The notes under the pieces are model-generated. The model made no database searches, was not told the DNA's origin, and worked only from the letters and a program-made list of their open reading frames with translations. A program made the position numbers and the translations under genes. Positions 6,872 through 37,123 of a stretch of 64,000 bases of DNA are shown one piece after another. Origin of the DNA: Streptomyces sp. QL37 (lineage in GTDB: Bacteria > Actinomycetota > Actinomycetes > Streptomycetales > Streptomycetaceae); assembly GCF_002941025.1 (NCBI RefSeq), contig NZ_PTJS01000001.1, positions 4,903,472-4,967,471 of the forward strand, given 5' to 3'. Position 1 is the first letter of the stretch, and each line of letters begins with the position of its first letter.

Positions 6872-8371
6872 TCAGTGGACGGGGTGCATGGTGCGCTTGA
6901 GCCAGGGAGCGGCGGCGATGACGGCCACACCGGCCGCCACCGCGATAGCGCCATTGACACCGAAGTAGGCGGGGTTGGAGACCTCGCCGTAGAGCTTCAC
7001 GATCTGTGCCTGGATGCCGTTGGCGAGGGCCAGTGACAGGAACCACAGCGCCATCGTCTGGCTGGCGAACGCCTTGGGGGCGAGCTTGGTGGTGGCGGAC
7101 ATGCCGGAGGTCTCCAGCAGGATGTCGCCGAGGCCGAGCAGCAGGTAGGAGCCGACGATCCACCAGGCGGCCATCTTGTACGTGTCGTCGGCGTGGCCCG
7201 AGGTGGGGATGACCATCAGCAGGAAGGACAGCCCGCCGAGGATCACCCCGATCGCGATCTTGTTCGAGGCATGCGGCTGGCGCGGTCCCATCCGGGCCCA
7301 GACGGCTGCCACGACGGGCGCCAGCGCGACCTCGAAGGCGCCCAGCGCGGAGGCGTACCAGCTCGCCGGGAAGTGGAAGCCGAAGATCTCCGTACGCGCG
7401 TTCGTCGAGGCCAGCAGCATCATCGTCGAGTACGCCTGGAAGAGGATGAAGTTGAAGACGACGGAGGCCAGGAACAGCACGACGTACGGCCGGAGCCTGC
7501 CGCGCTCCTCCGGGGTGACCCGGGGGCTCCTGAACATCACGACGAAGTACACGACGGGTGCGATCACCGAGACGAGGGTGAGGACGTCGACGAAACGGTC
7601 CATCGTGAGCCAGCCGGCCAGCACCAGGGCGGTCGCCACCAGGGCGGCCGCCACGACGCCGGCCGCGATCGTCAGCACGGCCCTGCGCATCGGGCCGGGA
7701 GCGAGGGCGTACTCGGCCGCGTGCTTTCGCCCGGCCAGGTGACGCCGGCCCGCGACGTACTGGATCAGGCCGAGCGTCATCCCGATCGCGGCGGCCGAGA
7801 ACCCCCAGTGCCAGCCCGCGTGCTCGCCGAGCCATCCGGTGACCAGGGGGCCGGCGAAGGCGCCGATGTTGATGCCCATGTAGTAGAGCGCGAAGCCCGC
7901 GTCGCGGCGCTGGTCCTCCGTGCGGTAGAGCTTGCCGACCATCGAGGCGACATTGGGCTTGAGCAGGCCCGTCCCGGCGCTGATCAGGCCGAGACCCACC
8001 CAGGTCATCGTGGCGGTCGGCACCGCCATGGCGTAGTGGCCGCAGGCGATGAGAATGCCGCCGTACAGCACGGCGCGGTACGAACCGAGGATCCGGTCGG
8101 CCAGCCAGCCGCCCGCGACGGACACCAGGTAGACGAGGGTGCCGTAGGCGGCGGACACGGAGGCGGCGGTGCCCGGGTCCATGCCCATGCCGCCGTCGGA
8201 GACCGTGTCGGCGAAGAAGAGGACCAGGATGGCCTGCATCCCGAGGAAGGAGAAACGCTCCCAGACCTCCAGCCCGGACAGGGTCATCAGACCCCGTGGC
8301 TGGCCGAAGAAGGCGTGATCGTCTCCGGGCGGTGGCTGGGCCGGTTCGGTACCGGTCGGGGCGTGGGACAA
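6872..8371 (-). CDS. Proton-dependent oligopeptide transporter (POT/PTR2 family)
   Basis: A 499-residue polytopic membrane protein importing di- or tripeptides (or related compounds) with protons. It shows the POT hallmark LEVWERFSFLGMQA in the first membrane segment, the conserved AGTGLLKPNV loop and the PTR2 signature FALYYMGINIGAFAGPL. Around a dozen hydrophobic helices follow. The start was set at TTG 8371 because AGGAG lies 8 nt upstream and no in-frame ATG or GTG precedes the conserved region. It is probably co-transcribed with the CocE-type hydrolase 9 bp downstream and is divergent from the polyprenyl synthase. Confidence 0.92.
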   Translation of the reverse strand: MSHAPTGTEPAQPPPGDDHAFFGQPRGLMTLSGLEVWERFSFLGMQAILVLFFADTVSDGGMGMDPGTAASVSAAYGTLVYLVSVAGGWLADRILGSYRAVLYGGILIACGHYAMAVPTATMTWVGLGLISAGTGLLKPNVASMVGKLYRTEDQRRDAGFALYYMGINIGAFAGPLVTGWLGEHAGWHWGFSAAAIGMTLGLIQYVAGRRHLAGRKHAAEYALAPGPMRRAVLTIAAGVVAAALVATALVLAGWLTMDRFVDVLTLVSVIAPVVYFVVMFRSPRVTPEERGRLRPYVVLFLASVVFNFILFQAYSTMMLLASTNARTEIFGFHFPASWYASALGAFEVALAPVVAAVWARMGPRQPHASNKIAIGVILGGLSFLLMVIPTSGHADDTYKMAAWWIVGSYLLLGLGDILLETSGMSATTKLAPKAFASQTMALWFLSLALANGIQAQIVKLYGEVSNPAYFGVNGAIAVAAGVAVIAAAPWLKRTMHPVH

Positions 8372-8527
8372 AGCGACAACTCCTGATCGTATGAGCTGAT
8401 GTCGAACATACCGGCGGTGGCGGGAAGGCGCCCACGGTGATCCAAAGGGGACCGGATACGCTGACTTGAGTGAGGACAGCGACACATCGACATTCCGTGT
8501 GATCGTCAGCAGACAGGAGATCCCCTC

Positions 8528-9538
8528 GTGACCGTCGTCGGGCCGTTCGGACTGAGCGTGCGGGACCAGGCACTTGAGGCCGATGTCCAGGCCGGTTTGG
8601 CCGCTGTCGAGGCGGGGCTGCTGGACGCCACCAAAAGTGAGGTCCCGTTCATCACGGAGGCCGCACAGCACCTCGTCAGCGCGGGGGGCAAGCGGTTCCG
8701 GCCGCTGCTGGTGATGCTCGCGGCACAGTTCGGCGACCCCGACGCGCCGGGCGTCGTCCCCTCGGCCGTGGTCGTGGAGCTGACGCACCTGGCGACGCTG
8801 TACCACGACGACGTGATGGACGAGGCCGACGTACGCCGCGGGGTGGACAGCGCCAACACCCGCTGGGGCAACTCCGTCGCCGTCCTGACGGGCGACTTCC
8901 TCTTCGCCCGCGCCTCTCACATCCTGGCCGACCTCGGGCCCGAGGCCGTCCGCATCCAGGCGGAGGCGTTCGAACGCCTGGTCACCGGTCAGATCCTGGA
9001 GACCGCCGGCCCGCGCGGCGGACGCGACCCCGTCGACCACTACATGGACGTGCTGGGCGGCAAGACCGGCTCGCTGGTCGCCGTGTCCGGCCGCTTCGGC
9101 GCCCTGATGGCCGGGGCCGACGAGTCGGTCGTGGACATCCTCACCCAGTACGGCGAACGCCTCGGCATCGCCTTCCAGCTCGCCGACGACGTCCTGGACA
9201 TCGCCTCCGACTCCCACGAGTCGGGCAAGACGCCGGGCACCGACCTGCGCGAGGGCATCCCCACCCTGCCGGTCCTCCACCTGCGCGCCAGGGCGGAGGC
9301 CGAGGGCCGTCCGGAGGACAAGGAGCTCGTGGAGCTGCTGGACGGCGACCTCTCCGACGACGCCGGTCTCGCGGAGGCGCTGCGCAGGCTGCGCGCCCAC
9401 CCGGCGCTGGAGCAGGCGAGGCGCGACACCGTCCGGTACGCCCAGGAGGCACGGGCGACGCTGGCGCCGCTGCCCGAGTGCTACGCGAAGGCCGCACTCG
9501 AGGAGCTGTGCGACGCCGTGGTGCACCGGGCCGGCTGA
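8528..9538 (+). CDS. Long-chain polyprenyl diphosphate synthase
   Basis: A 336-residue trans-prenyltransferase that condenses isopentenyl diphosphate units. Both aspartate-rich motifs are clear: first DDVMD within LYHDDVMDEAD, second DDVLD within QLADDVLDIASD. The GGKRFRP substrate loop is near residue 57. In Streptomyces such enzymes make the side chain of menaquinone, which would feed the respiratory complexes encoded further right; that role is inferred. GTG start preceded by AGGAG at 8516-8520. It is divergent from the POT transporter across 156 bp. Confidence 0.93.
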   Translation: MTVVGPFGLSVRDQALEADVQAGLAAVEAGLLDATKSEVPFITEAAQHLVSAGGKRFRPLLVMLAAQFGDPDAPGVVPSAVVVELTHLATLYHDDVMDEADVRRGVDSANTRWGNSVAVLTGDFLFARASHILADLGPEAVRIQAEAFERLVTGQILETAGPRGGRDPVDHYMDVLGGKTGSLVAVSGRFGALMAGADESVVDILTQYGERLGIAFQLADDVLDIASDSHESGKTPGTDLREGIPTLPVLHLRARAEAEGRPEDKELVELLDGDLSDDAGLAEALRRLRAHPALEQARRDTVRYAQEARATLAPLPECYAKAALEELCDAVVHRAG

Positions 9539-20017: not shown

Positions 20018-21068
20018 TCAGCCGACCACGGTCCAGGTGTCGCTGCCCGCCAGCAGGGTGCTCAGGTCACCCTTGCCGTGCCGCTCGATCGCGGCGTCGA
20101 GCTGGTCGGACATGAGCGCGTCGTAGACCGGGCGCTCCACACTGCGCAGCACGCCGATCGGTGTGTGGTGCAGAGTGTCGGCGTCGGCCAGCCGGGACAG
20201 CGCGAACGCCGTCGTCGGGCTGGGGTTGTGGGCGTCGTGGACGAGGACCTGCGACTGGTTCTCCTCGGTGACGGCGACCACGCTCAGGTCGCCCGTGATC
20301 GCGTCGCGCACGACCCCCTTGGAGTTGTCCACGCCGAAGAGGATCGGCCGTCCGTGCTCCAGGCGGATGACCGCCTCTTCGGCCCGTTCCTTGTCCTTGA
20401 GCACCTCGAAGGCGCCGTCGTTGAAGATGTTGCAGTTCTGGTAGATCTCCACCAGCGCGGTGCCCGGATGATCGGCGGCCGCGCGCAGCACGCTCGTGAG
20501 GTGCTTGCGGTCGGAGTCCACCGTGCGGGCGACGAAGGAGGCTTCGGCGCCCAGGGCGAGGGAGACCGGGTTGAAGGGGGCGTCGAGCGAGCCCATCGGC
20601 GTCGACTTGGTGATCTTGCCGACCTCGGAGGTGGGGCTGTACTGCCCCTTGGTGAGCCCGTAGATCCGGTTGTTGAACAGCAGGATCTTGAGGTTGACGT
20701 TGCGGCGCAGGGCGTGGATCAGGTGGTTCCCGCCGATCGACAGCGCGTCGCCGTCTCCGGTGACGACCCAGACGGACAGGTCGCGCCGGGAGGTGGCCAG
20801 GCCCGTCGCGATGGACGGGGCGCGGCCGTGGATGGAGTGCATCCCGTACGTGTTCATGTAGTACGGGAAGCGGGACGAGCAGCCGATGCCGGAGACGAAC
20901 GTGATGTTCTCCTTGGCCAGCCCCAGTTCGGGCATGAAGCCCTGCACCGCCGCGAGGACCGCGTAGTCACCGCAGCCCGGGCACCAGCGCACCTCCTGGT
21001 CGGACTTGAAGTCCTTCATGGACTGCTTGCCCTCGGCCTTGGGGACCAGCTGGAGGAGTTCGTTGGCG

Positions 21069-21076
<8 letters not shown>
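20018..21076 (-). CDS. korB: 2-oxoacid:ferredoxin oxidoreductase, beta subunit
   Basis: A 352-residue thiamine-diphosphate subunit. Cysteines for the [4Fe-4S] cluster are visible in WCPGCGDYAVL, GIGCSSRFPYYMNT and QNCNIFNDG. The thiamine motif runs from GDGDALSIGGNHLIHALRRN to the NNRIYGLTKGQ segment. With the alpha subunit it decarboxylates 2-oxoglutarate (or a related acid) to the acyl-CoA and reduces ferredoxin. It starts inside the last 8 bp of the alpha gene, so the two are coupled. It is convergent with the HxlR gene across 7 bp. Confidence 0.95.
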
Positions 21077-23024
<1,948 letters not shown>

Positions 23025-23295: not shown

Positions 23296-23955
23296 TCACG
23301 AGTTCAGATAAGTGAGAACAGCGAGAACACGCCGGTGATCCCCGTCACTGGGTGACAGGCCGAGTTTCAGGAAGATGTTGCTGACGTGCTTCTCCACCGC
23401 TCCGTCGCTGACCACCAGCTGCCGGGCGACGGCTGAATTCGTACGCCCCTCCGCCATCAGGCCCAGGACCTCCCGCTCGCGCGGCGTGAGCCCCGCCAGC
23501 ACGTCCTGCTTGCGGCTGCGGCCCAGCAGCTGAGCCACCACCTCCGGGTCCAGCGCGGTCCCGCCCTGCGCCACCCGGACCACGGCGTCCACGAACTCCC
23601 TGACCTCGGCGACCCGGTCCTTCAGCAGATAGCCCACCCCGCGGCTGCTGCCGGCCAGCAGCTCGGTGGCGTACTGCTCCTCGACGTACTGCGAGAGCAC
23701 CAGCACCCCGATGTCCGGGTAGTCCTTGCGCAGCCGCACCGCCGCCCGCACGCCCTCGTCGGTGTGGGTCGGCGGCATCCGCACATCGGCGACCACCACG
23801 TCCGGCAGCGCGTCCTGCCCCGCGAGGTCGCTCACCGTCTTGATCAGCGCCTCGGCGTCCCCGACCCCCGCGACGACGTCGTGCCCCAGATCGGTCAGCA
23901 GCCGGGTGAGTCCCTCCCGGAGCAGCACCGAATCCTCGGCGATGACGACCCGCAC
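23296..23955 (-). CDS. Response regulator, NarL/LuxR family
   Basis: A 219-residue transcription factor. The receiver domain has the acidic pair in VVIAEDS, phospho-acceptor Asp in [16 protein letters not shown] and Lys in YLLKDRV. The LuxR helix-turn-helix is [43 protein letters not shown] 23955 was chosen because GGAGG lies 5 nt upstream and the length then equals the family norm; longer in-frame starts reach 24006. It is the only regulator beside two kinase genes, but a strong hairpin separates it from them, so it may have its own promoter. Confidence 0.92.
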
Positions 23956-24102
23956 TCTTTCCTCCACGACGTTGTGTCCCCCACTGTCGGTGTTCCGTGT
24001 GTTCACGTGTTCGCCGCTGCCACGCGGCCGCTCGTGCGTCCAGCATCCCAGCTCCCGCGCCCGGATGGGCCGTACACCAGCGCTTCCGTGACACCGGACG
24101 CG

Positions 24103-24145
24103 CCGCAGTGCCCCGGCCGCCGTGATGGCGGCCGGGGCACTGCGG
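24103..24145 (-). terminator. Perfect 19-bp hairpin between kinase and regulator genes
   Basis: The arms at 24103-24121 and 24127-24145 are exact complements with a 5-nt loop. No U-tract follows on the minus strand, typical of Streptomyces. It starts 21 bp after the kinase stop and should end or attenuate the kinase transcript before the response-regulator gene. Confidence 0.8.
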
Positions 24146-24166
24146 CTCCGGTCAGGAGGCGGACAC

Positions 24167-25519
24167 TCAGCCCCGCCAGGGCAGCTCGGCCGTGACGGTC
24201 GTCGGTCCGCCGGCGGGGGAGTCGACGACGAGGATGCCGTCCACCGCGTCCAGCCGCTCCGTCAGCCCGGCGAGACCGCTGCCCGTCGACACACCGGCTC
24301 CGCCGCGCCCGTCATCGCCGACCTGGAGCATCAGCCGGTCGCCGGCCCGCCACACGTCGACCGAGGCACGGGTGGCCCGGGCGTGCTTGCTGACGTTCTG
24401 GAGGAGTTCGGAGACCGTGAAGTAGGCGATGCCCTCGATGGCCTGCGCGGGGCGCGACTCCAGGTCCACCACGACCTTCACGGGGACGGTGCAGCGGGAG
24501 GCGATGGCGGAGAGCGCCGCGTCGAGTCCGCGGTCGGTGAGGACGGCGGGGTGGATGCCGCGGGCGAGGTCGCGGAGTTCCTGGAGGGCGACCTTGACCT
24601 CGCCGTGGGCCTCGTCGACCATGCGCGCGGCGGCCTCGGGGTCCTTGTCGAGCTTCTCCTTCGCCAGCCCCAGATCCATGGCGAGGGCGACGAGGCGGGC
24701 CTGTGCGCCGTCGTGGAGGTCGCGTTCGATGCGGCGCAGGTCCGCGGCGGCCGTGTCCACGACCACTCCCCGGTCCGACTCCAGCTCCGAGACCCTCGTG
24801 GCCAGCCGGGAGGGGCCGAGCAGACCCGCGACCATGACCCGGTCCACGGTCGCCAGGCCCCGGATGATCCACGGCGTGATCAGCACGAGAGCCAGGCCGA
24901 GCGCGGCGGTGACCCCCAGCTCGAAGGACGAGTCGAGGAAGAACTGGTGCGTCCCGTCCCCGTACAACTGGATGCCGTCGACACCCACGTACGTGGGGAA
25001 GACCCAGTGCCACAGCGGGTACGTGAACGCGGCCCAGCCGTAGAACCAGAAGGTCGCCGCCACGGTGAACGCGAACACCGCCCACGGCATGTGCAGCACC
25101 GCGTAGAGGAGATGCCGCCAGGACACCCCGCTCTTCAGCGTCGCGCCGACCCAGGACATCAGGCCGCCCTTGCCGCGGACCGGCGCGGGATCCGCGATGT
25201 CCAGCCCCAGCAGTCCGCGCGCCCGGCCGCGTTCCATGACACCGAAGCCGCGGCACATGACGAGGCCGGCGGCGAGTATCGGAATGCCGAGGAAGGTGAT
25301 CAGCATGCCGAGGCCGAGCGACACCATCGTCACCGCGAAGGAGAACAGCACCACGCTGATCGGCAGGCTCAGGAGCAGATAGGCCAGCTCGCGCCACGTA
25401 CGCGCCTCGAAGGGCGCGCGGAGCGCCGTGGGGAAGAAGTGCTTCGCCGGCGGGTAGCTCCCCGCCCCGGTGCCGGGCCTGTGCTGGTCCCGGGTGTCCG
25501 GTCCGTATGCCGTGGCCAT
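24167..25519 (-). CDS. Sensor histidine kinase (HisKA_3 type), paralogue B
   Basis: A 450-residue membrane kinase. Residues about 30-240 are a sensor region with two pairs of membrane segments ([39 protein letters not shown], then ~115-210). The dimerisation/phosphorylation helix holds the His in [19 protein letters not shown]. The ATPase domain has [16 protein letters not shown] (N box) and [10 protein letters not shown] (G1). Its partner is most likely the LuxR-type regulator downstream. A 300-bp stretch is almost identical to the upstream kinase gene. Start ATG 25519. Confidence 0.92.
24481..24787 (-). repeat. Near-identical DNA block shared by the two kinases (copy B)
   Basis: It aligns without gaps to 26057-26363 at a fixed offset of 1576 bp. 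By eye about a dozen bases differ, half of them in one short patch. It encodes the phospho-acceptor helix and the start of the ATPase domain. Flanking sequence of the two genes is much more divergent. Confidence 0.85.
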
Positions 25520-25706
25520 CAGTGGCGTCCGTCCGTTTCTTCTGAGCGGGAACTCCCCGCGGACCGATACAACGGCTGATATCTCAAGAGTGCTGTGCCG
25601 GGAGCCGCCTCACCATGAGGGCCGTATCCGTATCCGGCCGGGGGTTTTCCCCACCACGGGGCCGCCCCGTCCCGTGCCCGGGACGGTAGCCCTCGGCGTC
25701 GCTGTG

Positions 25707-26906
25707 TCACGCCGCACCGGCGCGGTCGGCCCCGGAGGCGAGGCGGTCGCGCCAGGGCAGCTCGGCGGTGACCGTGGTCGGGCCGCCCTCGGGGGAGTCC
25801 AGGACGAACATCCCGTCGACCGCTCCCAGCCGCTCCGCCAGCCCCGACATGCCCGTACCGCCGTCGAGCCGGGCGCCGCCCCTCCCGTCGTCCCGGACCT
25901 GGAGCATCAGCCGGTCACCGGACCGCCACACGTCGACGGAGGCCCGACCGGCGCGGCTGTGCTTGCTGACGTTCTGGAGGAGCTCGGAGACCGTGAAGTA
26001 GGCGATGCCCTCGATGGCCTCGGCCGGCCGGGCCCGCAGCTCGACCGAGACGGTCACGGGGACGGTGCAGCGGGAGGCGATGGCGGAGAGTGCCGCGTCG
26101 AGTCCGCGGTCGGTGAGGACGGCGGGGTGGATGCCGCGGGCGAGGTCGCGGAGTTCCTGGAGGGCGACCTTGACCTCGCCGTGGGCCTCGTCGACCATGC
26201 GGGCGGCGGCCTCGGGATCGTCCGTGAGCTTCTCCTTCGCCAGCCCCAGGCCCATGGCGAGGGCGACGAGGCGGGCCTGTGCGCCGTCGTGGAGGTCGCG
26301 TTCGATGCGGCGCAGGTCCGCGGCGGCCGTGTCCACGACCACACCCCGGTCCGACTCCAGCTCGGCGATCCTGCGCTCCAGCTCGTCGGAGGGGGAGAGC
26401 AGCCCTCGCACCATCGCCCGGTCCGCGTTCGTCAGCCCGCGCGCGAGGTACGGGAGCACGGGCCAGAGGACGAACAGGCTCACCAGCGTCACGGCGAACG
26501 TCGCCACACCCCACGGCAGCCGGATGAACGAATACAGCAACGCCCGCCAGCCGACCGGGTCCTTCAGACCCGACCACAGCCAGGTGAAGAAGCCCTGGTC
26601 CCGACGCCCGCGCGCCATCGGGCTCGGCTCCTCGACGCGGACCCCGAGCATCCTCCGCGCCCGGCCGCGCTCGGCCCGGCCGAGACCGCGCGCGCCCTGC
26701 AGTCCCAGGGCGAGCAGGGGCAGCCCGATCACGGTGACGGAGAGCCCGGCACCCACGCCGACCAGGAACACGGTGTAGACGAACCCGACGATCGCCATCG
26801 GCAGATTGGCCAGGAGATACGCGATCTCCTTCCAGGTCCACCGGTCGAAGGCGAAGCGCGCGGGCGGCGGCCGGTCGTTGTCCGGCGGGGAGGGGCTCAT
26901 GGTCAT
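25707..26906 (-). CDS. Sensor histidine kinase (HisKA_3 type), paralogue A
   Basis: A 399-residue membrane kinase with the same plan as the downstream one. It has a hydrophobic sensor region (EIAYLLANLPMAIVGFVYTVFLVGVG, LSVTVIGLPLLALGL, then two segments near 125-165), the phospho-His in [19 protein letters not shown], and ATPase motifs [16 protein letters not shown] and VRDDGRGGAR. The start at MTMSPSPP (26906) is preferred; the frame extends to 26942 without a ribosome site. It is 187 bp upstream of paralogue B and divergent from the nuoA2 operon. Confidence 0.92.
   Translation of the reverse strand: MTMSPSPPDNDRPPPARFAFDRWTWKEIAYLLANLPMAIVGFVYTVFLVGVGAGLSVTVIGLPLLALGLQGARGLGRAERGRARRMLGVRVEEPSPMARGRRDQGFFTWLWSGLKDPVGWRALLYSFIRLPWGVATFAVTLVSLFVLWPVLPYLARGLTNADRAMVRGLLSPSDELERRIAELESDRGVVVDTAAADLRRIERDLHDGAQARLVALAMGLGLAKEKLTDDPEAAARMVDEAHGEVKVALQELRDLARGIHPAVLTDRGLDAALSAIASRCTVPVTVSVELRARPAEAIEGIAYFTVSELLQNVSKHSRAGRASVDVWRSGDRLMLQVRDDGRGGARLDGGTGMSGLAERLGAVDGMFVLDSPEGGPTTVTAELPWRDRLASGADRAGAA
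26057..26363 (-). repeat. Near-identical DNA block shared by the two kinases (copy A)
   Basis: Partner of 24481-24787. Identity persists at synonymous positions, which points to recent duplication or gene conversion rather than protein-level constraint alone. Confidence 0.85.
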
Positions 26907-27086: not shown

Positions 27087-27177
27087 TGTGCGACGGGGCT
27101 GCTTACCCTCTCTTTAACAGGGCCTAGACTCCCGTGCGTACAGACCGTCGAACAGGTTGAGGGAGCGAGGGGCGGAC

Positions 27178-27579
27178 GTGGCGGACGTGCCGGGACCGAC
27201 CGTTCTCGCGTCGGACTACTTCCAGAGCTACTCAGTGGTCGGACTGCTCGCCCTGGTGGGCGTGGTGTTCGTCGCCGTCGCCTTCGGGGCCGGCCGGCTG
27301 CTGAGGCCCGTGGTCCCAACGCCGGAGAAACTCCTCACGTACGAGTGCGGCGTGGACCCCGTGGGCGAGGGCTGGGCCCACACCCAGGTTCGCTATTACG
27401 TGTACGCCTTCCTGTACGTGATCTTCGCCGTCGACTCGATCTTCCTGTTCCCGTGGGCGACGGTCTTCGCGGCCCCCGGTTACGGGGCGACGACGCTGGT
27501 GGAGATGTTCATCTTCCTCGGTTTCCTGGCCGTGGGACTGCTCTACGCATGGAAGAAGGGCGTCCTCGAATGGGCGTGA
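27178..27579 (+). CDS. nuoA2: NADH-quinone oxidoreductase subunit A (second copy)
   Basis: A 133-residue membrane subunit with three segments, including [41 protein letters not shown] and [19 protein letters not shown]. The conserved loop [23 protein letters not shown] is the NuoA signature, with Cys in the YECG position. GTG 27178 is preceded by GAGGGG at 5 nt; a TTG at 27157 is an alternative. It is the first gene of a ten-gene operon and overlaps nuoB2 by 10 bp. Confidence 0.93.
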
Positions 27580-28205
27580 CGAGCCGGCCGAACCCCGAAC
27601 CCCCCGTGTCGCTGCCCGACCCGACGCCGCTGCCCGAGCCGAAGAGGCTCGGCGTGCTGTCCCGGCTCGCGCCCGAACCGATGAAGGTGGTCCTCAACTG
27701 GGGCCGCCGCTACAGCCTGTGGGTCTTCAACTTCGGACTCGCCTGCTGCGCCATCGAATTCATCGCCGCCTCCATGGCGCGGCACGACTTCATCCGGCTC
27801 GGCGTCATCCCCTTCGCGCCCGGCCCCCGGCAGGCCGACCTGATGGTGGTGTCCGGCACGGTGACGGACAAGATGGCCCCCGCCGTGAAGCGGCTCTACG
27901 AGCAGATGCCCGAGCCGAAGTACGTCATCTCCTTCGGCGCCTGCTCCAACTGCGGCGGACCGTACTGGGATTCGTACTCCGTGACGAAGGGCGTCGACCA
28001 GATCATCCCCGTCGACGTCTACGTACCCGGCTGCCCGCCCCGGCCCGAGGCGCTCCTGCAGGGCATCCTCAAGCTGCAGGAGAAGATCGCCCGCGAATCG
28101 CTGGCCGAGCGGTACAGCACCGAGGGCACGGCCCGCCCGTCGGCCGCCGCCCTGCGCAGCGGTCTCGTCGAGGCCCCGAAGGCGCCGGGGGAGGAGGGGA
28201 AGTGA
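27570..28205 (+). CDS. nuoB2: NADH-quinone oxidoreductase subunit B (second copy)
   Basis: A 211-residue subunit that carries cluster N2, the last iron-sulfur centre before quinone. All four ligands are present: the Cys pair C59-C60 ([10 protein letters not shown]), C125 (FGACSNCGG) and C155 ([12 protein letters not shown]). The N-terminal ~35 residues are a Pro-rich extension and the C-terminus has a short Ala/Glu tail. N2 in known complexes sits against NuoD, which is absent from this operon. It overlaps nuoC2 by 4 bp (GTGA). Confidence 0.95.
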
Positions 28206-29389
28206 CCGCCCCGGACCTCTACAGCACGCTGCCCGATGCCGTCACCGACGTCTTCGGCCCGGACGCCACCGCCGCGCACGCGTACGACCTGCTGACCGTC
28301 GACGTCCCGGCCGCCTCCTGGACCGCCGCCCTCGAAACGGCCCGCGACGAGCTGGGCTGCACCTACTTCGACTGGCTGAGCGCCGTCGACGAACCGGGCA
28401 CCGGCTTCCGTGTCTGCGCCCATGTCGCGGCCGTCGGCGGGGGCACGGTCCGGCGCCTGCTGGTCCGCACGACCGTCCCGCACGACGCGGCCACCCTGCC
28501 CACCGCCGTCGGCGTCTACGCGGGCGCCGCGTGGCACGAGCGCGAGACGCACGAGATGTTCGGCATCGGCTTCGAGGACCACCCCCATCTGGTCCCGCTG
28601 CTGCTGCCCGAGAGTTTCGAGGGCCACCCGCTGCGCAAGGACTTCGTCCTGGCGGCCAGGGTCGCCAAGGCCTGGCCGGGGGCGAAGGAGCCGGGAGAGT
28701 CCGAACACGGCGGGCCCAAGCGGCGGACCATGCTGCCGCCCGGGGTGCCCGATCCCAACGAATGGGGCCCGCTCAAGGGACAGCTCCCGCCCGCACCCGC
28801 CCGCCCCGCCCGAGGGGCCCGCGCGGCGGGCGACCGCCCGGTGCGCCGGACCCGCAGTGCGAGCGAGGGCTCGGCGGGCCGGCGGCCGGACGCGGCGGAG
28901 ACCCCGCAGCCGGCGGCGCCACCACGCCGTACCCGCAGCGTCTCCCAGGGCTCGGCGAGCCAGACCGCAGGCCCTGCGGCCGCACCTCCGGCCGGTGCGG
29001 GGGACGACGGCGGCACGGCGCCCGCGAAGGGTGCGGCCGGCGGCGCGGACGCGCCCTGGCACGACGCGCGCCCCGCCTTCGACGACACCCCGAAGCGGCC
29101 TGCCCCGGAACAGCCCGCCCCGGAACAACCCGCCCCGGAACCGCCTGCCCCTGAACCGCCGACGCCGTCGACGGAGGCCGCGCAGCCGAGCGAGCCCGAG
29201 CCGTCGTCCGAGACCCCCGCGCAGCCGAGCGAGCCCGAGCCGTCGTCCGAGACCCCCGCGCAGGACGACGCCGACCCTGCTCCGGACAGCGCCGGCGAGC
29301 GTAAGGACACCTCCGACTCCTCATCCCGCACCGACCGCACCGACCGTTCCGCCGGTCCCGACCGTCCCGCCGGAGGCGATACCGCGTGA
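28202..29389 (+). CDS. nuoC2: NADH-quinone oxidoreductase subunit C (second copy) with long disordered tail
   Basis: A 395-residue protein, of which only the first ~190 residues are the 30-kDa subunit fold. The signature [18 protein letters not shown] is at 113-130, followed by [14 protein letters not shown]. From about residue 195 the chain becomes a ~200-residue Pro/Ser/Glu/Ala-rich tail with [10 protein letters not shown] repeats and a perfect 13-residue duplication, ending in Asp/Arg/Ser-rich sequence. Usual subunit C is near 150-240 residues. There is no NuoD domain fused to it. It overlaps nuoB2 and nuoH2 by 4 bp each. Confidence 0.93.
29181..29258 (+). repeat. Perfect 39-bp tandem duplication inside nuoC2
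   Basis: Two exact 39-bp copies, 29181-29219 and 29220-29258, encode the repeated segment [13 protein letters not shown]. They sit in the low-complexity tail, just after degenerate 15-bp CCCGCCCCGGAACA-type repeats (about 29101-29160). Such repeats suggest the tail grows and shrinks by slippage. Confidence 0.9.
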
Positions 29390-30354
29390 ACGACGTACTC
29401 GACGTCGCCCTGCGCCTCGTCATCGTCTTCGCCGTGTTCATGGTCGTCCCGCTGATCGTGGGACAGGCCGAACACAAGGTGATGGCCCACATGCAGGGCC
29501 GCCTCGGTCCGATGTACGCGGGCGGTTTCCACGGCTGGGCGCAGCTCGTCGCGGACGGGGTGAAGTTCGCGCAGAAGGAAGACGTCGTACCGGCCGAAGC
29601 GGACCGCCGCATCTTCCAACTGGCACCCGCCGTCGCCCTGCTCCCGTACCTCCTCGTGATCGTCGCCATCCCGATCGGTCCCAGCGAGGGGGCGGTCGGT
29701 CAGGTCGTCGACGCGGGCATCTTCTTCGTGCTGGCCGTCATGGGCGTCGGCGTGCTCGGCTCGCTGATGGCGGGGTGGGCCTCGGCCAACAAGTTCTCCC
29801 TCCTCGGCGGTCTCCGCACCGCCGCGCAGCTCCTCGCCTACGAGCTGCCCATGCTGCTCGCCGCCGCCTCCGTGGCCATGGCGGCAGGCACCGTCTCGCT
29901 CCCCGGCATCCTCAACGCCTTCGAGTGGTGGTGGCTGCCCTGGCAGATCGTCGGCGCACTCGTCTTCTTCGTGGCAGGGCTCGCCGAACTCCAGCGCCCG
30001 CCCTTCGACATGCCGGTCGCCGACTCGGAGATCATCTTCGGGGCGTACACCGAGTACACGGGCCTCCGGTTCGCGTTGTTCCTGCTCGCGGAGTACGCGG
30101 GGATCGTCGTCCTGTGCGGTCTGACGACCGTCCTGTTCCTCGGCGGGTGGCACGGGCCGCTCGGCGCGGACGGGCTCGGCTGGGTCTGGACCCTCCTCAA
30201 GACCGGCGTTCTCGCGTTCGTCGTCATCTGGCTCCGGGTCACCTACCCCCGTCTGCGCGAGGACCAGCTGCAGAAGCTCGCCTGGACCACGCTCATCCCC
30301 CTCGCTCTCGCGCAGATCGCGCTCACCGGCATCGTGAAGGTGGCGATCAACTAG
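29386..30354 (+). CDS. nuoH2: NADH-quinone oxidoreductase subunit H (second copy)
   Basis: A 322-residue membrane subunit that forms the quinone-cavity floor and joins the peripheral arm to the membrane arm. Family signatures are [21 protein letters not shown] (ERK..QxRxGP variant, here starting AEHK), the acidic loop region [17 protein letters not shown] ([17 protein letters not shown]) and [19 protein letters not shown]. About eight membrane segments are visible. GTG start overlaps the nuoC2 stop by 4 bp. It is followed by nuoI2 with a 1-bp overlap (TAGTG). Confidence 0.94.
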
Positions 30355-30983
30355 TGCCCCCGATCCCCGGCTCAGGCCTGGCCAAGGGTCTTGCCGTCAC
30401 CCTGCGGACCATGACGAAGCGCACGGTCACCGCGCAGTACCCGGACGTCCAGCCCGAACTGCCGCCCCGCACCCGGGGCGTCATCGGGCTGTTCGAGGAG
30501 AACTGCACGGTCTGCATGCTCTGCGCCCGTGAATGCCCCGACTGGTGCATCTACATCGACTCCCACAAGGAGACGGTGCCGCCGGCCGCCCCCGGTGGCC
30601 GTGAGCGCAGCCGCAACGTCCTGGACCGTTTCGCGATCGACTTCGCCCTGTGCATGTACTGCGGTATCTGCATCGAGGTCTGTCCTTTCGACGCGCTGTT
30701 CTGGTCGCCCGAGTTCGAGTACGCGGAGACGGACATCCACGAACTCACCCACGAGCGCGACAAGCTCCGCGAGTGGATGTGGACCGTTCCCGAGCCACCC
30801 GCGCTCGACCCGGCAGCCGAGGAGCCCAAGGAGATCGCCGCCGCCCGCAAGACGGCCGACAAACTCCAGGCCCAGGAAGCCCAGGAAGCCCAGGAAGCCC
30901 AGGCGGCTCAGGAGGCCCGGGCGGCGCAGGAAGCCGAGCAGGCCCGGCCGGGGCAGGCACCGGAAGCGGAGGGCCAGGAATGA
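30354..30983 (+). CDS. nuoI2: NADH-quinone oxidoreductase subunit I (second copy), two [4Fe-4S] clusters
   Basis: A 209-residue iron-sulfur subunit carrying clusters N6a and N6b. Ligands are C51, C54, C57, C61 ([12 protein letters not shown]) and C100, C103, C106, C110 ([12 protein letters not shown]). These clusters pass electrons to N2 in NuoB. The C-terminal ~45 residues are a coil of AQE repeats, encoded partly by three exact 9-bp GCCCAGGAA units at 30870-30896. GTG start overlaps the nuoH2 stop by one base; the stop overlaps nuoJ2 as ATGA. Confidence 0.95.
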
Positions 30984-31603
30984 CCCTCGCGGCTACAGCC
31001 GGCCACCCGGGCTTCCTCTCACCCACCGGCGTCGAGATCGCCTTCCTCCTGGTCGGGCTCGCCACCTTCGGCGCGGCTCTCATCACCGTCACGACCAAGC
31101 AACTCGTGCACGCGGCCCTCTGGCTCGTCGTCGCACTCGGCGGCATAGCGGTGGAGTACCTCCTCCTCACGGCCGAGTTCATCGCATGGGTGCAGGTGCT
31201 GATCTACGTCGGCTCCATCGTGGTCCTCCTCCTCTTCGGGCTGATGCTCACGAGGGCTCCCATCGGCCGCTCCCCGGACGCCGACTCGGGCAACCGGTGG
31301 ATCGCACTCGGCGCCTCCGTCGCCGCCGCAGGCGCCCTCGTCTGGGTCGTCGTGGACGCCTTCCGCACGACCTGGATCGATCTGGACGGTCCCGCCCAGG
31401 GCTCCACCAAGGCCTCGGGGGAGTTCCTCTTCCGGAACTGGGTGCTCCCCTTCGAAGCGCTCTCCGTCCTGCTGCTCGCCGCCCTCGTGGGCGCGATCGT
31501 CCTGTCCCGCAAGGACCGCCAGGACCGAGAGGGCAAGCAGGACCGAGAGGGCAAGCAAGACCGGCCGGAACGACCGGGCGCGAACCGGGAGGACAAGAGC
31601 TGA
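30980..31603 (+). CDS. nuoJ2: NADH-quinone oxidoreductase subunit J (second copy)
   Basis: A 207-residue membrane subunit with five segments. Diagnostic parts are [41 protein letters not shown] and the [21 protein letters not shown] segment. The last ~30 residues are a charged tail with a duplicated QDREGK unit, from two exact 18-bp repeats at 31520-31537 and 31538-31555. It is coupled to nuoI2 (4-bp overlap) and nuoK2 (1-bp overlap). Confidence 0.93.
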
Positions 31604-32019
31604 TGCACCTCGCCTATCCCGCGGTCCTCGCCGTCCTCCTCTTCTGCACCGGCCTGTACGGCGTACTCGCCCGCCGCAACGCGATCCTCGTCCTGATGTC
31701 CGTCGAGCTCATGCTCAACGCCGTCAACCTCAACCTGGTCGCCTTCGACGTCTGGCTCCGCGACGCACTCCACGCCGGCCAGGCCCTCACCCTCTTCACG
31801 ATCGCCATCGCCGCCGCCGAGATCGGCATCGGCCTCGCGATCGTCCTGGCCGTCCACCGCAACCGCGGCAGCTCGGACGTCGACCGCCTCCGCGACACCG
31901 CGGAGACCGACGAGGCCGAGACGCTCCCCGACGAAGCGGCCGACGACGCCCGGGACAACACCGCAGACCAGGCCACTGCTCCGGCAGGGAAGGCAAAGAA
32001 GGCAGAGGCCACCGCGTGA
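31603..32019 (+). CDS. nuoK2: NADH-quinone oxidoreductase subunit K (second copy)
   Basis: A 138-residue proton-channel subunit with three membrane segments. The channel glutamates are in [17 protein letters not shown] and [20 protein letters not shown], as in other NuoK/MrpC proteins. NuoK is usually about 100 residues; here a ~45-residue tail rich in Asp/Glu/Ala and Lys at the end follows [16 protein letters not shown] sits 12 nt before the ATG. It overlaps nuoL2 by 4 bp. Confidence 0.93.
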
Positions 32020-34016
32020 CCACCACGACCCTCGCCGTCCTCGTCCCCCTCCTCCCCTTCCTGGGCGCCGCCGCAGGGCTTCTCCTGGGCCGGTCCGCGC
32101 CCGGCTTCGTCCGCCCCCTCGCCGTCCTGCCGACCCTCACCGCAGCTGTCCTCGCCGTCGTGGTCGCCGCACGCCAGGGAGGCGGCCGGCCCATCGACGC
32201 CGCGACCCAGCTGACCCCCACCGGCTCGGTCCCGATCGACCTGGCCCTGCACCTGGACGGCTTCGCCGTCCTCGTCGCCGTCCTCGTCGGACTCGTGGCC
32301 ACCTGCGTGCAGATCTACTCGACGGCGTATCTCAAGGACGACGTCCGCTACCCGTCGTACGCGGCCCTCGTCTCCCTCTTCACCTCCGCGATGCTGCTCG
32401 TCGTCTACTCCGGCGACCTCATGGTGCTCCTGGTCGGCTGGGAGATCATGGGCATCTGCTCGTACTTCCTCGTCGGGCACTACTGGGAGACCCCCGAGGC
32501 GCGTGCGGCCTCGCTCAAAGCCTTCCTCGTCACCAAGCTCGGCGACGTGCCCTTCCTCATCGGCCTGTTCGCGCTCGCCGCCGACACCGGCACCTTCCGC
32601 ATCACCGGAATCCTGGCCGCCGTCACCAACGGCGGACTCGACCACCCCACCCTCGTCGCCCTGCTGCTCCTCGCCGGCGTCGCGGGCAAGTCCGCGCAGT
32701 TCCCCCTGCACACCTGGCTGCCCGACGCGATGGCAGGCCCCACCCCCGTCTCCGCGCTCATCCACGCCGCGACGATGGTCGCCGCCGGCATCTACTTCGT
32801 GGCCCGGCTCCTCCCCGTCTTCGCAGCCTCCGGCGCCGCCCTGGTCGTCCTCGCCGTCATGGCGGCCGTCACGATGATCGGCTCCGGACTCGCCGCACTC
32901 GCCCAGGACGACATCAAGCGCGTCCTCGCCTACTCGACGATCGGCCAGCTGGGCTACATGTCCGGCGCCCTGGCCGTCGGCGACCGCGGGGCCGCCGTCT
33001 TCCACCTCCTGTCGCACGGTGCGTTCAAAGCCGTCCTCTTCCTCGCGGCGGGCGTCGTCATCCACGCGGCGGGAACCAACTCACTGGCCGCCATGTCCCG
33101 CATGGGCGGGCTGGCCAAGCGCATCCCCGACGCCTACTGGACGATGACCGTCGCCCTCCTCGCGCTTGCCGCGATCCCGCCGTTCGCCGGCTTCTTCTCC
33201 AAGGAAGCCGTCCTCGTCGCCGCCGAGCACACCGCCTTCGGGGACCGTGACGTCGCCCCAGCCGCGGCCGGCTGGACGATCCTCGTCGCCGGCCTCGCCG
33301 CCGCGGTCCTCACCGCGGCCTACGCCACCCGGCTGTGGCTCCTCGCCTTCCGCGGGCGCGGGCAGGAGGCCCCCGACCACGGCAAACAGCCCGTCGCGAT
33401 GACCTCCGTCCTCTGGGTCCTCGCCGTCCCGACCATCGCCTTCGGCCTCACGACCGGCGTCCTCGCCGACTGGTTCGACGGACACGGCCTCACTCCCTCC
33501 CTCACGACCGCCGTCCTCTCCACCGGCGTCGGCCTCGTCGGCGGACTCGTCACCTACGGGGTCTGGCGCCACACCACGGCGCTCGCCGACCGTCCCCCGG
33601 TCGGCGCGGTGGCCGCCCACCCCGACGCCGAGCCCGCCCTCGTTGAGGCCGAGGCGATGACCTCGCACACCGCGGCGTACGGCACCATCGCGGACGCCCA
33701 GGACCCGTCGGACCCCGGCAGGCTCCTGCTGGGTCCGCTGCACCGGCACGCGGTCACCGGATTCCACCTCGACGCCCTGTACACGGTGCTGTTCGTCCGT
33801 CCCGTGGGGGCCGCCGCACGACTCGTCCGCTTCCTGGACCGCGAGGTCGTCGACACCTACGTACACGGCTCGGGCAGCATCGCCCGCGGACTCGGCACAC
33901 TGATCCGCCGCGCCCAGACCGGCAACGTGCAGACCTACCTCGGCGCGCTGCTCGCCGGAACCCTTGTCCTGGCGATCGCCGCCGTCGTCTTTGCCAACGT
34001 CTACGCCGGGGCGTGA
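32016..34016 (+). CDS. nuoL2: NADH-quinone oxidoreductase subunit L (second copy)
   Basis: A 666-residue antiporter-like proton pump subunit. The conserved proton-path residues are in [20 protein letters not shown] (Glu) and [31 protein letters not shown]. Further on come [20 protein letters not shown] and [19 protein letters not shown]-terminal hydrophobic helix ([19 protein letters not shown]) follows the amphipathic lateral helix region. GTG start overlaps nuoK2 by 4 bp; nuoM2 follows after 3 bp. Confidence 0.96.
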
Positions 34017-34019
34017 GCC

Positions 34020-35591
34020 GTGTTCGATATCAGCGCATCCGTGATGCAGTTCCTTCTGGCGTTCATCGTCGTCGTCCCGCTCCTGGGCGCGGCCGCCGCG
34101 CTCCTGCCCGCCCCGCCCGGTCTCAAGGGAAGGAACCCCGACCAGGCCGTGCTCCGCCACGGCGTGACCGTCACCGGCGCCGTGCTCCTCGCCGCGCTCG
34201 TCCTGGCCGCGGGCTTCGACCACGACCACCCGTCGAAGATGCAGGCCACCACGGACATCAGCTGGATCCCGGCACTCGACGTCCGGATCCACCTCGGCAC
34301 CGACGGCATCTCGCTCCCCCTTCTCGTGCTGACCGCGCTGCTGACCTTCCTCTGCGCGCTCCACAGCTACTTCAAGCTCCCCGCAGGCCCCTCCCCGAAG
34401 GCCTTCGTCGCCCTGGTCCTCGTCCTCGAGTCCGGCACCCTCGCGACCTTCGCCGTCCTCGACCTGATGCTGTTCTTCCTGGCCTTCGAGATGGTGCTCA
34501 TCCCGATGTACTTCCTCATCGCCCGCTGGGGCGGCGACCGGAAGCAGCCCGCCGCCTGGAAATTCATCCTCTACACGCTGCTCGGGTCCGTGGTCATGCT
34601 GCTCGGGCTGCTCCTCATCGGACTGAAGAGCGGCACTTTCGACATGGTGGCACTCGCCACTGACAACGGCCGGGGCCTCACCACATCCGTGCAGGTCATC
34701 GCCGTACTGGCCGTCGGTATCGGGCTCGCCGTGAAGACCCCGATGTGGCCCCTGCACAGCTGGCTCCCCGACGCCCACACCGCGGCGCCGACCGTCGGCT
34801 CCGTGCTCCTCGCCGGCGTACTGCTGAAGATGGGCACGTACGGATTCGTCCGCATCCTGCTCCCCGTCACCCCCGACGGGATGCAGACCTTCGCGCCCTA
34901 CCTCGCGGCGTTCGCCGTCGTCGGGATCATCTACGGCTCCCTCGCCTGCCTGGCCCTCGCGCGCCCCGGCGCCAAGGGGGACCTCAAGCGCCTGATCGCC
35001 TACTCCTCCGTGGGCCACATGGGCTTCGTGCTCCTCGGCATCGCGACCATGACCCCCACCGGTGTGAACGGCGCGCTCTTCGCGAACATCGCCCACGGCC
35101 TCATCACAGGGCTGCTGTTCTTCCTGGTCGGCGCCGTGAAGGACCGCTACGGCACCGCGGACCTCGACACCCTGTCCGGGGCCACCGGAGCCGCTCTCTA
35201 CGGCCGGGCGCCCCGCCTCGGCGGCCTCCTCGCCTTCGCCGCCGTCGCGTCGCTCGGACTCCCCGGCCTCGCCGGGTTCTGGGGCGAGATGCTCACCCTG
35301 TTCGGCGCCTTCGACCCCGCCGAAGGACTCAGCCGCCCCGCCTTTCTCACCTTCATGTCCATCGGCGCCCTCGGCACCCTGCTCACGGCCGCGTACATGC
35401 TGGTCGTCGTACGCCGCGTCTGCATGGGCGAGCACCGTGAGCAGCAGCCGGTCGCCGACATCCAGCGCTACGAATTCGCCGCCTGGACCCCGCTCGCCGC
35501 CCTGACCGTCCTCGCCGGCCTCTGGCCCGCCGTCCTCCTCGGCCTCACCGACCCGGCCGTGCAGAAGCTCCTCGCAGGAGGCAAGTCGTGA
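34020..35591 (+). CDS. nuoM2: NADH-quinone oxidoreductase subunit M (second copy)
   Basis: A 523-residue antiporter-like subunit with 14 or so membrane segments. Key motifs are FFLAFEMVLIPMYFLIARWGG (channel Glu), KTPMWPLHSWLPDAHTAAPTV and KRLIAYSSVGHMGFVLLGI. A further ANIAHGLITGLLFFLVGAV segment holds the conserved His. GTG start 3 bp after the nuoL2 stop. It overlaps nuoN2 by 4 bp. Confidence 0.96.
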   Translation: MFDISASVMQFLLAFIVVVPLLGAAAALLPAPPGLKGRNPDQAVLRHGVTVTGAVLLAALVLAAGFDHDHPSKMQATTDISWIPALDVRIHLGTDGISLPLLVLTALLTFLCALHSYFKLPAGPSPKAFVALVLVLESGTLATFAVLDLMLFFLAFEMVLIPMYFLIARWGGDRKQPAAWKFILYTLLGSVVMLLGLLLIGLKSGTFDMVALATDNGRGLTTSVQVIAVLAVGIGLAVKTPMWPLHSWLPDAHTAAPTVGSVLLAGVLLKMGTYGFVRILLPVTPDGMQTFAPYLAAFAVVGIIYGSLACLALARPGAKGDLKRLIAYSSVGHMGFVLLGIATMTPTGVNGALFANIAHGLITGLLFFLVGAVKDRYGTADLDTLSGATGAALYGRAPRLGGLLAFAAVASLGLPGLAGFWGEMLTLFGAFDPAEGLSRPAFLTFMSIGALGTLLTAAYMLVVVRRVCMGEHREQQPVADIQRYEFAAWTPLAALTVLAGLWPAVLLGLTDPAVQKLLAGGKS

Positions 35592-37123
35592 CCGTGGCAG
35601 CCGACAGCGCAACCGGGGCGGCGAGCCTCGTCCAGTCCGTCGACTGGCTCGCGATCGCGCCTCCCGTCATCGCGGCGTCCGTGGCCCTGCTCGTCCTCGT
35701 CGCCGACCTCTTCACCGGCGAACGGCACAAGCCGCTCCTCGGCTACGGGGCCGTGGCCGGGCTCGTAGCCGCGCTCGCCATGCTCGTCCCGCTGCGCGCC
35801 GGGGACCGCTCCACCTTCTGCCTCACCGGCGGGGCACAGGCCTGCAGCTACACCGCCGACCACTTCGCCCTCGTCATCCAGGCCCTCGTGCTCGGCGGAG
35901 CCCTGCTCACCGCGCTGCTCTCGATCGGCGACACCCGCAAGCTCCCCGCGGGCGAGTTCTGGTTCCTGCTGCTGTCCTCCGCCGCCGGAGCCGCGCTCCT
36001 GCCCGCCGCCCGGGACCTCGCCACCCTCGTCGTCGCCCTGGAAGTCGCGTCGCTCCCCGCCTTCGCCCTCGTCGGCATCAAGCGCGGCGACCGCCGGTCC
36101 TCCGAAGCGGCCCTGAAGTTCTTCCTGTCCTCCGTCGTGGCCACCGCAGTGATGCTCCTGGGCGTCAGCTTCGTCTACGCGACCACCGGCACGATGCACC
36201 TCACGGAGATCGCCGCCCGCCTCGACGACGTACCGGGCAGGTTCTCCACGCTCGCCGAGGCGGGAGTCGTCCTCACACTCGTCGGCTTCGCCTTCAAGAC
36301 GGCCGCCGCGCCGTTCCACTTCTGGGTGCCCGACACCTATGTGGGAGCCCCGCTCCCCATCGCCGCCTACCTCTCCGTCGTCGGCAAGGCCGTCGGCTTC
36401 TCCGGCCTCATCCTCGTGACGGTGATCGGCTTCCCGTCGTACGCCGACGTCTGGGGCCCCGCCCTGGCCGTCCTAGCCGCGCTCACCATGACCGTCGGCA
36501 ACGTCGCCGCCCTCCGGCAGAACACCACCCGCGCCCGCAGCGCCGTACGCCTCCTCGCCTGGTCGTCCGTCGGGCAGGCGGGCTACCTCCTCGTCCCGAT
36601 CGCCGCCGCCGCGTACTCCAGCGACGCCCAGATCGGCTCCACCGTCGCCTACGCGCTCATGTACGCCGTGGTGAACCTCGGGGCCTTCGCGGTGGCCGCC
36701 CTGGTCGCCCGCAGCCGCCCCGGCAACCGCCTGAGCGACTACCGCGGCCTGTACGCCACCCGCCCCCTGGCCGCGCTCGCCATGGGCTTCTTCCTGCTCT
36801 GCCTGGCAGGCCTGCCGCCCGGCATCATCGGCCTCTTCGCCAAGGTCACCGTCTTCTCCTCGGCCGTCGACGCCGGGCTCGGCTGGCTCGCCGTCGTCAT
36901 GGCCGTCAACGTGGTGATCGCGCTGTACTACTACCTCCGGTGGACCGCCGCGCTCTTCAGCGCCCCGGAGCCGGCCCCGGCCTCCGAGGAGGCGCCCAAG
37001 GCGCCGGCGCACCGGATCCCCGCCCCGCTCACCCTGGCGATCGCCCTCACCGCCGTAGCCGGAATCACACTGTCCGGCGCCCCCCAGCTCATCCTCCGTT
37101 TCGCCACCCTCAGCCTCTTCTGA
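35588..37123 (+). CDS. nuoN2: NADH-quinone oxidoreductase subunit N (second copy)
   Basis: A 511-residue antiporter-like subunit, last gene of the operon. Motifs include VALEVASLPAFALVGIKRGD, FKTAAAPFHFWVPDTYVGAPLP, and SAVRLLAWSSVGQAGYLLVP. The C-terminus has MAVNVVIALYYYLRWTAALF as in NuoN. An Ala/Pro/Glu-rich loop (SAPEPAPASEEAPKAPAH) lies before the final membrane segment. No strong terminator was seen before mscL, 117 bp downstream, so read-through is possible. Confidence 0.96.
   Translation: MTVAADSATGAASLVQSVDWLAIAPPVIAASVALLVLVADLFTGERHKPLLGYGAVAGLVAALAMLVPLRAGDRSTFCLTGGAQACSYTADHFALVIQALVLGGALLTALLSIGDTRKLPAGEFWFLLLSSAAGAALLPAARDLATLVVALEVASLPAFALVGIKRGDRRSSEAALKFFLSSVVATAVMLLGVSFVYATTGTMHLTEIAARLDDVPGRFSTLAEAGVVLTLVGFAFKTAAAPFHFWVPDTYVGAPLPIAAYLSVVGKAVGFSGLILVTVIGFPSYADVWGPALAVLAALTMTVGNVAALRQNTTRARSAVRLLAWSSVGQAGYLLVPIAAAAYSSDAQIGSTVAYALMYAVVNLGAFAVAALVARSRPGNRLSDYRGLYATRPLAALAMGFFLLCLAGLPPGIIGLFAKVTVFSSAVDAGLGWLAVVMAVNVVIALYYYLRWTAALFSAPEPAPASEEAPKAPAHRIPAPLTLAIALTAVAGITLSGAPQLILRFATLSLF

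Follow-up and report, generated by a model that had tools for sequence, protein, structure and literature searches.

The second complex I operon of Streptomyces sp. QL37 probably forms an 11-subunit complex I with a distantly encoded NuoD

We analysed a stretch of 64,000 nucleotides of the genome of Streptomyces sp. QL37 (the window; C1:4903472-4967471), which contains a second complex I operon, nuo2, devoid of nuoD, nuoE, nuoF and nuoG. This operon very probably specifies a complex I of 11 subunits (A, B, C, D and H to N), the D subunit of which comes from a relocated gene, nuoD2, and which is probably fed with ferredoxin reduced by a 2-oxoacid:ferredoxin oxidoreductase (Kor). The identification is based on the gene content, on the kinship and co-occurrence of nuoD2 and on conserved cluster and pump residues, from which we infer the relocation of nuoD2 before the source class diversified, the assembly of the complex, the ferredoxin donor, the menaquinone acceptor and the methylation of Arg55 in NuoD2. 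The nuo2 product is thus most likely a known kind of complex I in a new arrangement, and not a D-less one. The suffixes 1 and 2 refer to the first (nuo1) and second sets.

Pfam and NCBIfam scans showed that positions 27157-37123 of the window are occupied by a compact operon, nuoA2-B2-C2-H2-I2-J2-K2-L2-M2-N2, in which genes for D, E, F and G are absent:

27157..27579, plus strand: nuoA2 (PF00507, 2.3e-32; start TTG 27157 or GTG 27178)
27570..28205, plus strand: nuoB2 (PF01058, 3.8e-29; N2 cysteines 59, 60, 125 and 155)
28202..29389, plus strand: nuoC2 (PF00329, 1.8e-31, residues 33-153 of 395; long Pro/Ser-rich tail)
29386..30354, plus strand: nuoH2 (PF00146, 7.9e-100)
30354..30983, plus strand: nuoI2 (Fer4 and NCBIfam NuoI, scanned from 30378; two 4Fe-4S motifs)
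30980..31603, plus strand: nuoJ2 (PF00499)
31603..32019, plus strand: nuoK2 (PF00420)
32016..34016, plus strand: nuoL2 (PF00361/PF00662; pump Glu/Lys kept in the alignment to NuoL1)
34013..35591, plus strand: nuoM2 (TIGR01972, 549 bits, scanned from 34020; start 34013 or 34020; pump residues kept)
35588..37123, plus strand: nuoN2 (PF00361, TIGR01770; pump residues kept)

All ten frames are open and run in the same direction, and each protein passes the Pfam cut-off for the expected family, with NCBIfam agreeing on the family. The genes overlap by 4-10 bases at the junctions A/B, B/C, C/H, I/J, K/L and M/N; nuoI2 most likely starts with the GTG at 30354, one base inside the nuoH2 stop, the ATG at 30411 being the alternative. 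With the end of nuoC2 at 29389 and the start of nuoH2 at 29386, there is no space for nuoD, and no Pfam match to a D domain was found in NuoC2, which consists of the 30-kDa domain alone followed by its tail. A previous reading of the DNA, made from the sequence only, had described ten intact and mostly overlapping genes, without room for nuoD, without a D domain fused to nuoC2 and without nuoD, nuoE, nuoF or nuoG. It was right about this local gene content, for the operon itself. The tail of NuoC2 (window 28202-29389) contains repeated motifs. In another genome (L072, 4862-7768), an open frame between B2 and H2 would give a C2 protein of about 970 amino acids.

A genome-wide search with PF00346 yielded two full-length homologues of NuoD: nuoD1, which is part of nuo1, and an orphan, nuoD2. 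The nuo1 operon is complete and lies about 34 kb upstream of nuo2 (its genes were named from translations, and E1, F1 and D1 by family matches). The orphan is situated near folate-synthesis genes (named from translations):

C1:3867417-3868559 of the genome, 1.06 Mb from nuo2: nuoD2 (380 amino acids; PF00346, 8.9e-71)
Directly upstream of nuoD2, same strand: a PF02636 (Methyltransf_28) gene (2.4e-17)

The closest named relatives carry nuoD2 at 98-99% identity. Compared with the PDB, NuoD2 gave 54 matches, nearly all labelled complex I 49-kDa, NuoD or NdhH chains, the last-placed two being labelled formate hydrogenlyase and membrane-bound hydrogenase. The alternative of a [NiFe] hydrogenase large subunit was discarded, the PF00374 score (19.6 bits) being below the cut-off of 25.8. 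A hydrogenase-like substitute for NuoD, which the sequence-only reading had envisaged, was also dropped because NuoD2 belongs to PF00346 and is devoid of Ni-binding CxxC pairs, its sole cysteines being at positions 265, 271 and 286. Alignment of D1 with D2 showed 25 differing positions that are near-invariant within D2.

Evidence for the origin of nuoD2 was obtained from 15 loci of other classes, which we picked from matches in 149 genomes of the phylum. At 14 of them, the D gene is flanked by C and H within a Nuo2-type operon; one of these (L118) has no I match and another (L109) ends at a contig edge within M. L118 and L119 are deep branches, the genes of which match Nuo1 and Nuo2 about equally. 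In a quick tree with D1 as outgroup, the 33 orphan D2 rows of the source class formed one clade (100 in the Shimodaira-Hasegawa-like approximate likelihood-ratio test, SH-aLRT), nested among the rows of other classes; the nesting rests on this quick-method tree, since the careful tree was made without the other-class rows. Because D stands between C and H elsewhere and the orphan clade is nested among such genes, the window operon is best read as an 11-gene operon whose D was relocated, and the relocation would have taken place before the source class diversified. No intermediate stage was found within this class, the flanks of nuoD2 read in 80 named loci containing no other nuo2 gene. Of the 51 genomes carrying D2 as well as H2, 39 had the two genes on separate contigs, and in the other 12 they were separated by 147 kb to 1.07 Mb. 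In families f47 and f82 of another class, D2 is likewise displaced from the operon, with no other nuo gene in the nine loci read and with I2 on another contig or 321 kb from D2 in 10/10 such genomes checked. This displacement may be a second relocation or a shared one; the quick tree does not place row OP_L120, which bears the label 'operonic' there though its D2 is displaced. As to L118, the stretch between J and H (around 7933-9183) gave no match to NuoI.

Further evidence that NuoD2 belongs with the nuo2 proteins came from their distribution in 197 genomes of the source class. D2 and I2 were both present in 83 genomes and both absent from 106, D2 alone was found in 3 and I2 alone in 5 (Fisher value 3.5e-45, which is overstated because the genomes are related, and is not a probability). 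H2 was present in 53 genomes, all of which had I2 and 51 of which had D2; among the 35 genomes with I2 and without H2, 32 had D2, the others being G004, G023 and G042 (80-93% complete). All 16 counted genomes of the genus of the window carry H2, I2 and D2. The presence sets were compiled by hand from search listings, with a full-length alignment required for D2, at least 62% identity for H2, at least 49% for I2 and any match with E <= 0.001 for MidA; two partial D2 matches (G021 and G097) were counted, and the MidA matches of G078 and G166 were weak. In several searches, positions are those among the matches listed. One nuoD2 gene (G055) was entered twice (L036 and L056), so that 50 D2 rows correspond to 49 genes and 32 'full' rows to 31 genomes. 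Since nuoD2 exists elsewhere and goes with B2, C2 and I2, the apparent lack of NuoD disappears. A nuoD2 gene at another place with a matching phylogeny, which the sequence-only reading had mentioned as a possible finding, was indeed found on the sequence side, and the NuoD-less complex deduced from the operon is not supported.

The PF02636 gene next to nuoD2 belongs to what we take to be the MidA/NDUFAF7 family. A match to this family was found in 78 of the 86 genomes with D2 and in 7 of the 111 without it. The gene was at most 5 kb from D2 in 74 of the 80 named loci, 5 of the other 6 being at contig ends, and a MidA-like match (28-37% identity) was also at most 7 kb from D2 in the nine f47/f82 loci (L120, L122-L129). 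A weaker match (30-37% identity) was present within about 330 bases after nuoN2 in the operonic loci L112, L113 and L117. Arg55 of NuoD2 aligns with the arginine of the HRG motif in mitochondrial chains, presumably Arg85 of NDUFS2. Position 55 is occupied by Arg in each of the 50 D2 rows and of the 15 other-class rows, versus Thr in 21/21 D1. It is reported that Arg85 of human NDUFS2 is dimethylated by NDUFAF7 (PMC3829151) and that the same mark is found in Paracoccus (PMC3750175). The arrangement is alike in that a PF02636 protein goes with a NuoD homologue carrying the target arginine; methylation is reported there, whereas for NuoD2 it is predicted. Probably, the MidA-family neighbour methylates Arg55 of NuoD2, which would extend NuoD arginine methylation by a MidA-family enzyme to Actinobacteria. 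We found no record in the open-licence literature of a nuoD2/NuoD gene paired with a MidA/NDUFAF7-family gene in Streptomyces.

The cluster and pump residues are conserved. NuoB2 has kept the four N2 cysteines (59, 60, 125 and 155) when compared with NuoB1, and NuoI2 both 4Fe-4S motifs providing the N6a/N6b ligands when compared with NuoI1. The pump Lys/Glu of L2, M2, N2 and K2 align with those of NuoL1, M1, N1 and K1, at positions that we take, for the antiporter subunits, from E. coli. Of the quinone-site residues of NuoD2, His29 is kept and the tyrosine is replaced by Trp78.

As to the electron donor, the nuo2 operon does not contain the NADH module (E, F and G) that distinguishes the 14-subunit complex I, G having been looked for in the operon only. 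Genome-wide searches with PF01512 and PF01257 did not disclose a second N module either, as there was no cognate E or F outside nuo1; NuoG was not searched genome-wide. The extra E/F homologues were rejected as an N module: they belong to an operon resembling one for formate dehydrogenase (L210) and to a lone gene with a 51K domain (L211), labels that rest on translations, without a family search. At L211 (4833-7651), the gene with the 51K (PF01512) domain stands beside a membrane protein, outside any nuo operon. The genome thus encodes B, C, D and I as well as A, H and J to N, with no cognate E or F found (G: operon only), as in 11-subunit enzymes. Two genes for a candidate donor system are present in the window:

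20018..21076, minus strand: korB, 2-oxoacid:ferredoxin oxidoreductase beta-like (PF02775)
21069..22859, minus strand: korA, 2-oxoacid:ferredoxin oxidoreductase alpha-like (PF01855, PF01558, PF17147)

KorA was at most 14 kb from nuoI2 in at least 51 of the 88 genomes with I2. In the remaining 37, among the matches listed, it was on another contig in 20, far away on the same contig in 2 and not listed in 15. It was divergently adjacent to the nuo2 genes in several loci read.

Taken together, nuo2 is best read as a proton-pumping ferredoxin:menaquinone oxidoreductase. According to this proposal, nuoD2 would have left the operon and would now sit 1.06 Mb away, behind the gene of the MidA/NDUFAF7-family methyltransferase. 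NuoD2 would pair with NuoB2 round cluster N2, completing an I2-B2-C2-D2 quinone-reducing (Q) module. Electrons would probably pass from reduced ferredoxin to N6a and N6b of NuoI2, then to N2 and menaquinone, while H2/A2/J2/K2 and L2/M2/N2 would pump protons. The nearby 2-oxoacid:ferredoxin oxidoreductase would be the likeliest source of reduced ferredoxin.

A donor other than ferredoxin reduced by Kor (another ferredoxin, F420H2, flavodoxin or another enzyme) is unlikely, though worth serious consideration for such an 11-subunit complex. KorA near I2 was missing from the matches listed in the 37 genomes mentioned above, G065 and G116 have B2-C2-I2 and no KorA among the matches listed, and, according to PMC11238625, no common donor has been found for 11-subunit enzymes. 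Against this stands the nearness of KorA to I2 in at least 51 of 88 genomes, with both the full and the membrane-less versions described below, together with its divergent adjacency. It is very unlikely that Nuo2 shares NuoD1, and perhaps NuoEFG, with nuo1 to form mixed complexes, as the completeness and proximity of nuo1 might suggest and as proposed, as a hybrid machinery, in PMC9239103. A cognate D2 exists, it groups with the operonic D of other classes and tracks B2, C2 and I2, and the 25 differences between D1 and D2 are at positions near-invariant within D2. The loan of NuoD from the first operon, also considered in the sequence-only reading, is not supported.

That nuo2 would be a dispensable remnant heading for loss might be suggested by the failure to find H2 in 32 of the 197 genomes, despite the presence of I2 and D2. 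This is highly improbable given the ten open frames of the window, the presence of H2, I2 and D2 in all 16 genomes of the genus and the expression of the operon reported in PMC3765725. The least credible explanation, for which we see next to no chance, is a distinct pump working without any NuoD. It has in its favour that the operon has no D gene; the N2 ligands kept in NuoB2, the co-occurrence of D2 and its kinship with operonic D genes speak against it, and a D-free pump, as formerly suggested, is not supported.

Several observations do not agree with the proposal of an 11-subunit, Kor-fed complex with NuoD2. The quinone tyrosine, present in 21/21 D1, is replaced by Trp78, with Trp also in 13 of the 15 other-class rows; in NuoH2 of the window and of 6/6 other readable loci, V, I or L takes the place of the Glu in PFDMPE; and NuoA2 has FAVD for FDIE in the window and in 4 of 5 loci. 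These three substitutions are hard to reconcile with a quinone site of the usual type. The joint occurrence of D2 and I2 has eight exceptions. D2 occurs without I2 in G070 (where B2 is present on a contig that also bears KorA), in G097 (77% complete) and in G190, for which a completeness of 94% offers no excuse; I2 occurs without D2 in G004, G014, G023, G042 and G108 (72-93% complete). The genomes are not independent, which weakens the statistic, and nuo2 is scattered in some H2-bearing genomes (L069, L071). As regards MidA, no match was found in eight genomes with D2, the orientation of the gene relative to nuoD2 varies, and the corresponding arginine of E. coli NuoCD is unmodified according to PMC3750175. 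Genomes devoid of D2, G038 and G085 among them, also have KorA some 20 kb from nuo1. Its nearness to nuo2 thus partly reflects synteny inherited near nuo1, and counts as support, not as proof.

Cyanobacterial and chloroplast NDH-1 comprises 11 core Nuo subunits, is fed by ferredoxin and has accessory ferredoxin-binding subunits; the likeness with nuo2 lies in the 11 core subunits and in the ferredoxin feed, which is proposed here. Other known forms of complex I without the NADH module, as far as the partial sources describe them, resemble nuo2 in this absence, with ferredoxin or pyruvate:ferredoxin oxidoreductase (PFOR) as proposed donor. They differ in that here D is 1.06 Mb away beside a MidA-family gene and NuoD2 contains Trp78. 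In the 2M complex I of Chloroflexi, nuoBCDI are also apart from the other nuo genes (PMC7117926), so that in both cases Q-module genes are separated from membrane genes; in the available text, nuoC and nuoD are fused there and the whole B-C-D-I set is apart, whereas here D alone is. The second nuo set of Streptomyces, with nuoD2 apart, was in print by 2013 and is described in PMC3765725 and PMC8388888, and the cluster was seemingly expressed as one operon (PMC3765725). From its description in the accessible parts of PMC3765725, PMC8388888 and PMC9239103, the published nuo2 (SCO4599-SCO4608) is the same cluster. One account, in its available portion, states that C, D, E, F, G and L are missing from nuo2, the function of which it calls unclear (PMC9239103). 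No nuoC2 is listed in these portions, whereas C2 and L2 are present in our window; nor did we find a record of nuoC2 in Streptomyces in the open-licence literature. This literature also yielded no paper making these points for an actinobacterial 11-subunit complex I. Our additions to the published accounts are the kinship of D2, the link with MidA and the co-occurrence. An apparent impossibility, complex I without NuoD, is replaced by a testable assignment that those accounts left open, namely a pump of 11 subunits, probably fed by ferredoxin, the D gene of which stands at a separate locus.

More surprising is a finding from outside the window, namely B-C-D-I quartets without membrane-arm genes. 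Among the 32 genomes that have D2 and I2 and lack H2, we read the B2-C2-I2 loci (L057-L068 and L093-L104) of 24. At 21 of these, nuoB2, nuoC2 and nuoI2 were together with no A2, H2 or J2-N2 in the stretch read, and nuoD2 was distant. Of the other three, L057 is cut off by the end of its contig, in L058 unrelated genes separate C2 from I2, and L059 has kept A2 and has H2 in separate matching pieces between C2 and I2 (around 7430-7801), where nuoH2 is apparently being lost. H2 alone was sought genome-wide, whereas A2 and J2-N2 are called absent from the stretches that were read, some of which are cut by contig ends; G015, G060, G067, G083 and G096 are incomplete assemblies (60-78% complete). As D2 is kept in 32 of the 35 genomes with I2 and without H2 and B2-C2-I2 loci persist, the quartet can persist after the pump is lost, with D2 as one of its members. 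The trees require a minimum of three transitions between full and membrane-less forms.

In 9 of the 11 membrane-less loci read for this (L060-L068), NuoI2 has lost some 25 residues at its N-terminus, with the N-terminal helix, compared with none of 4 full loci; the recent losers L058 and L059 have kept it wholly or partly. In NuoD2, residues at quinone-coupling positions that are invariant in the 32 full rows were found less often in the 17 membrane-less rows: Glu130 in 7, Arg165 in 8 and His29 in 15. Arg55, Trp78 and His160 are invariant in both groups; L033 (G070) was excluded from this comparison. A shortened N-terminus of NuoB2 was dropped as a sign of membrane-arm loss, the starts being unverified and the full-operon L069 aligning from the same point. 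We propose, only tentatively and with rather more doubt than conviction, that B2-C2-D2-I2 may have become a self-sufficient soluble Q module in at least three lineages, probably fed by ferredoxin and using an acceptor other than membrane quinone, the Streptomyces quartet still driving a pump. For Actinobacteria, we found no record in the open-licence literature of B-C-D-I quartets that lack a membrane arm. These natural deletions, in which the membrane arm is gone and the Q module kept, bear on the modular assembly of complex I and on whether the Q module can work alone.

Other genes of the window were named from translations. A response regulator gene and two sensor-kinase-like genes (23296-26906) are divergent from nuo2, and their position matches that of AbrC1/C2/C3 (SCO4596-4598), which run divergently from the nuo2 genes according to PMC9739823. 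At 1675-1902, a small protein with two 4Fe-4S motifs is encoded, adjoining transporter-like genes.

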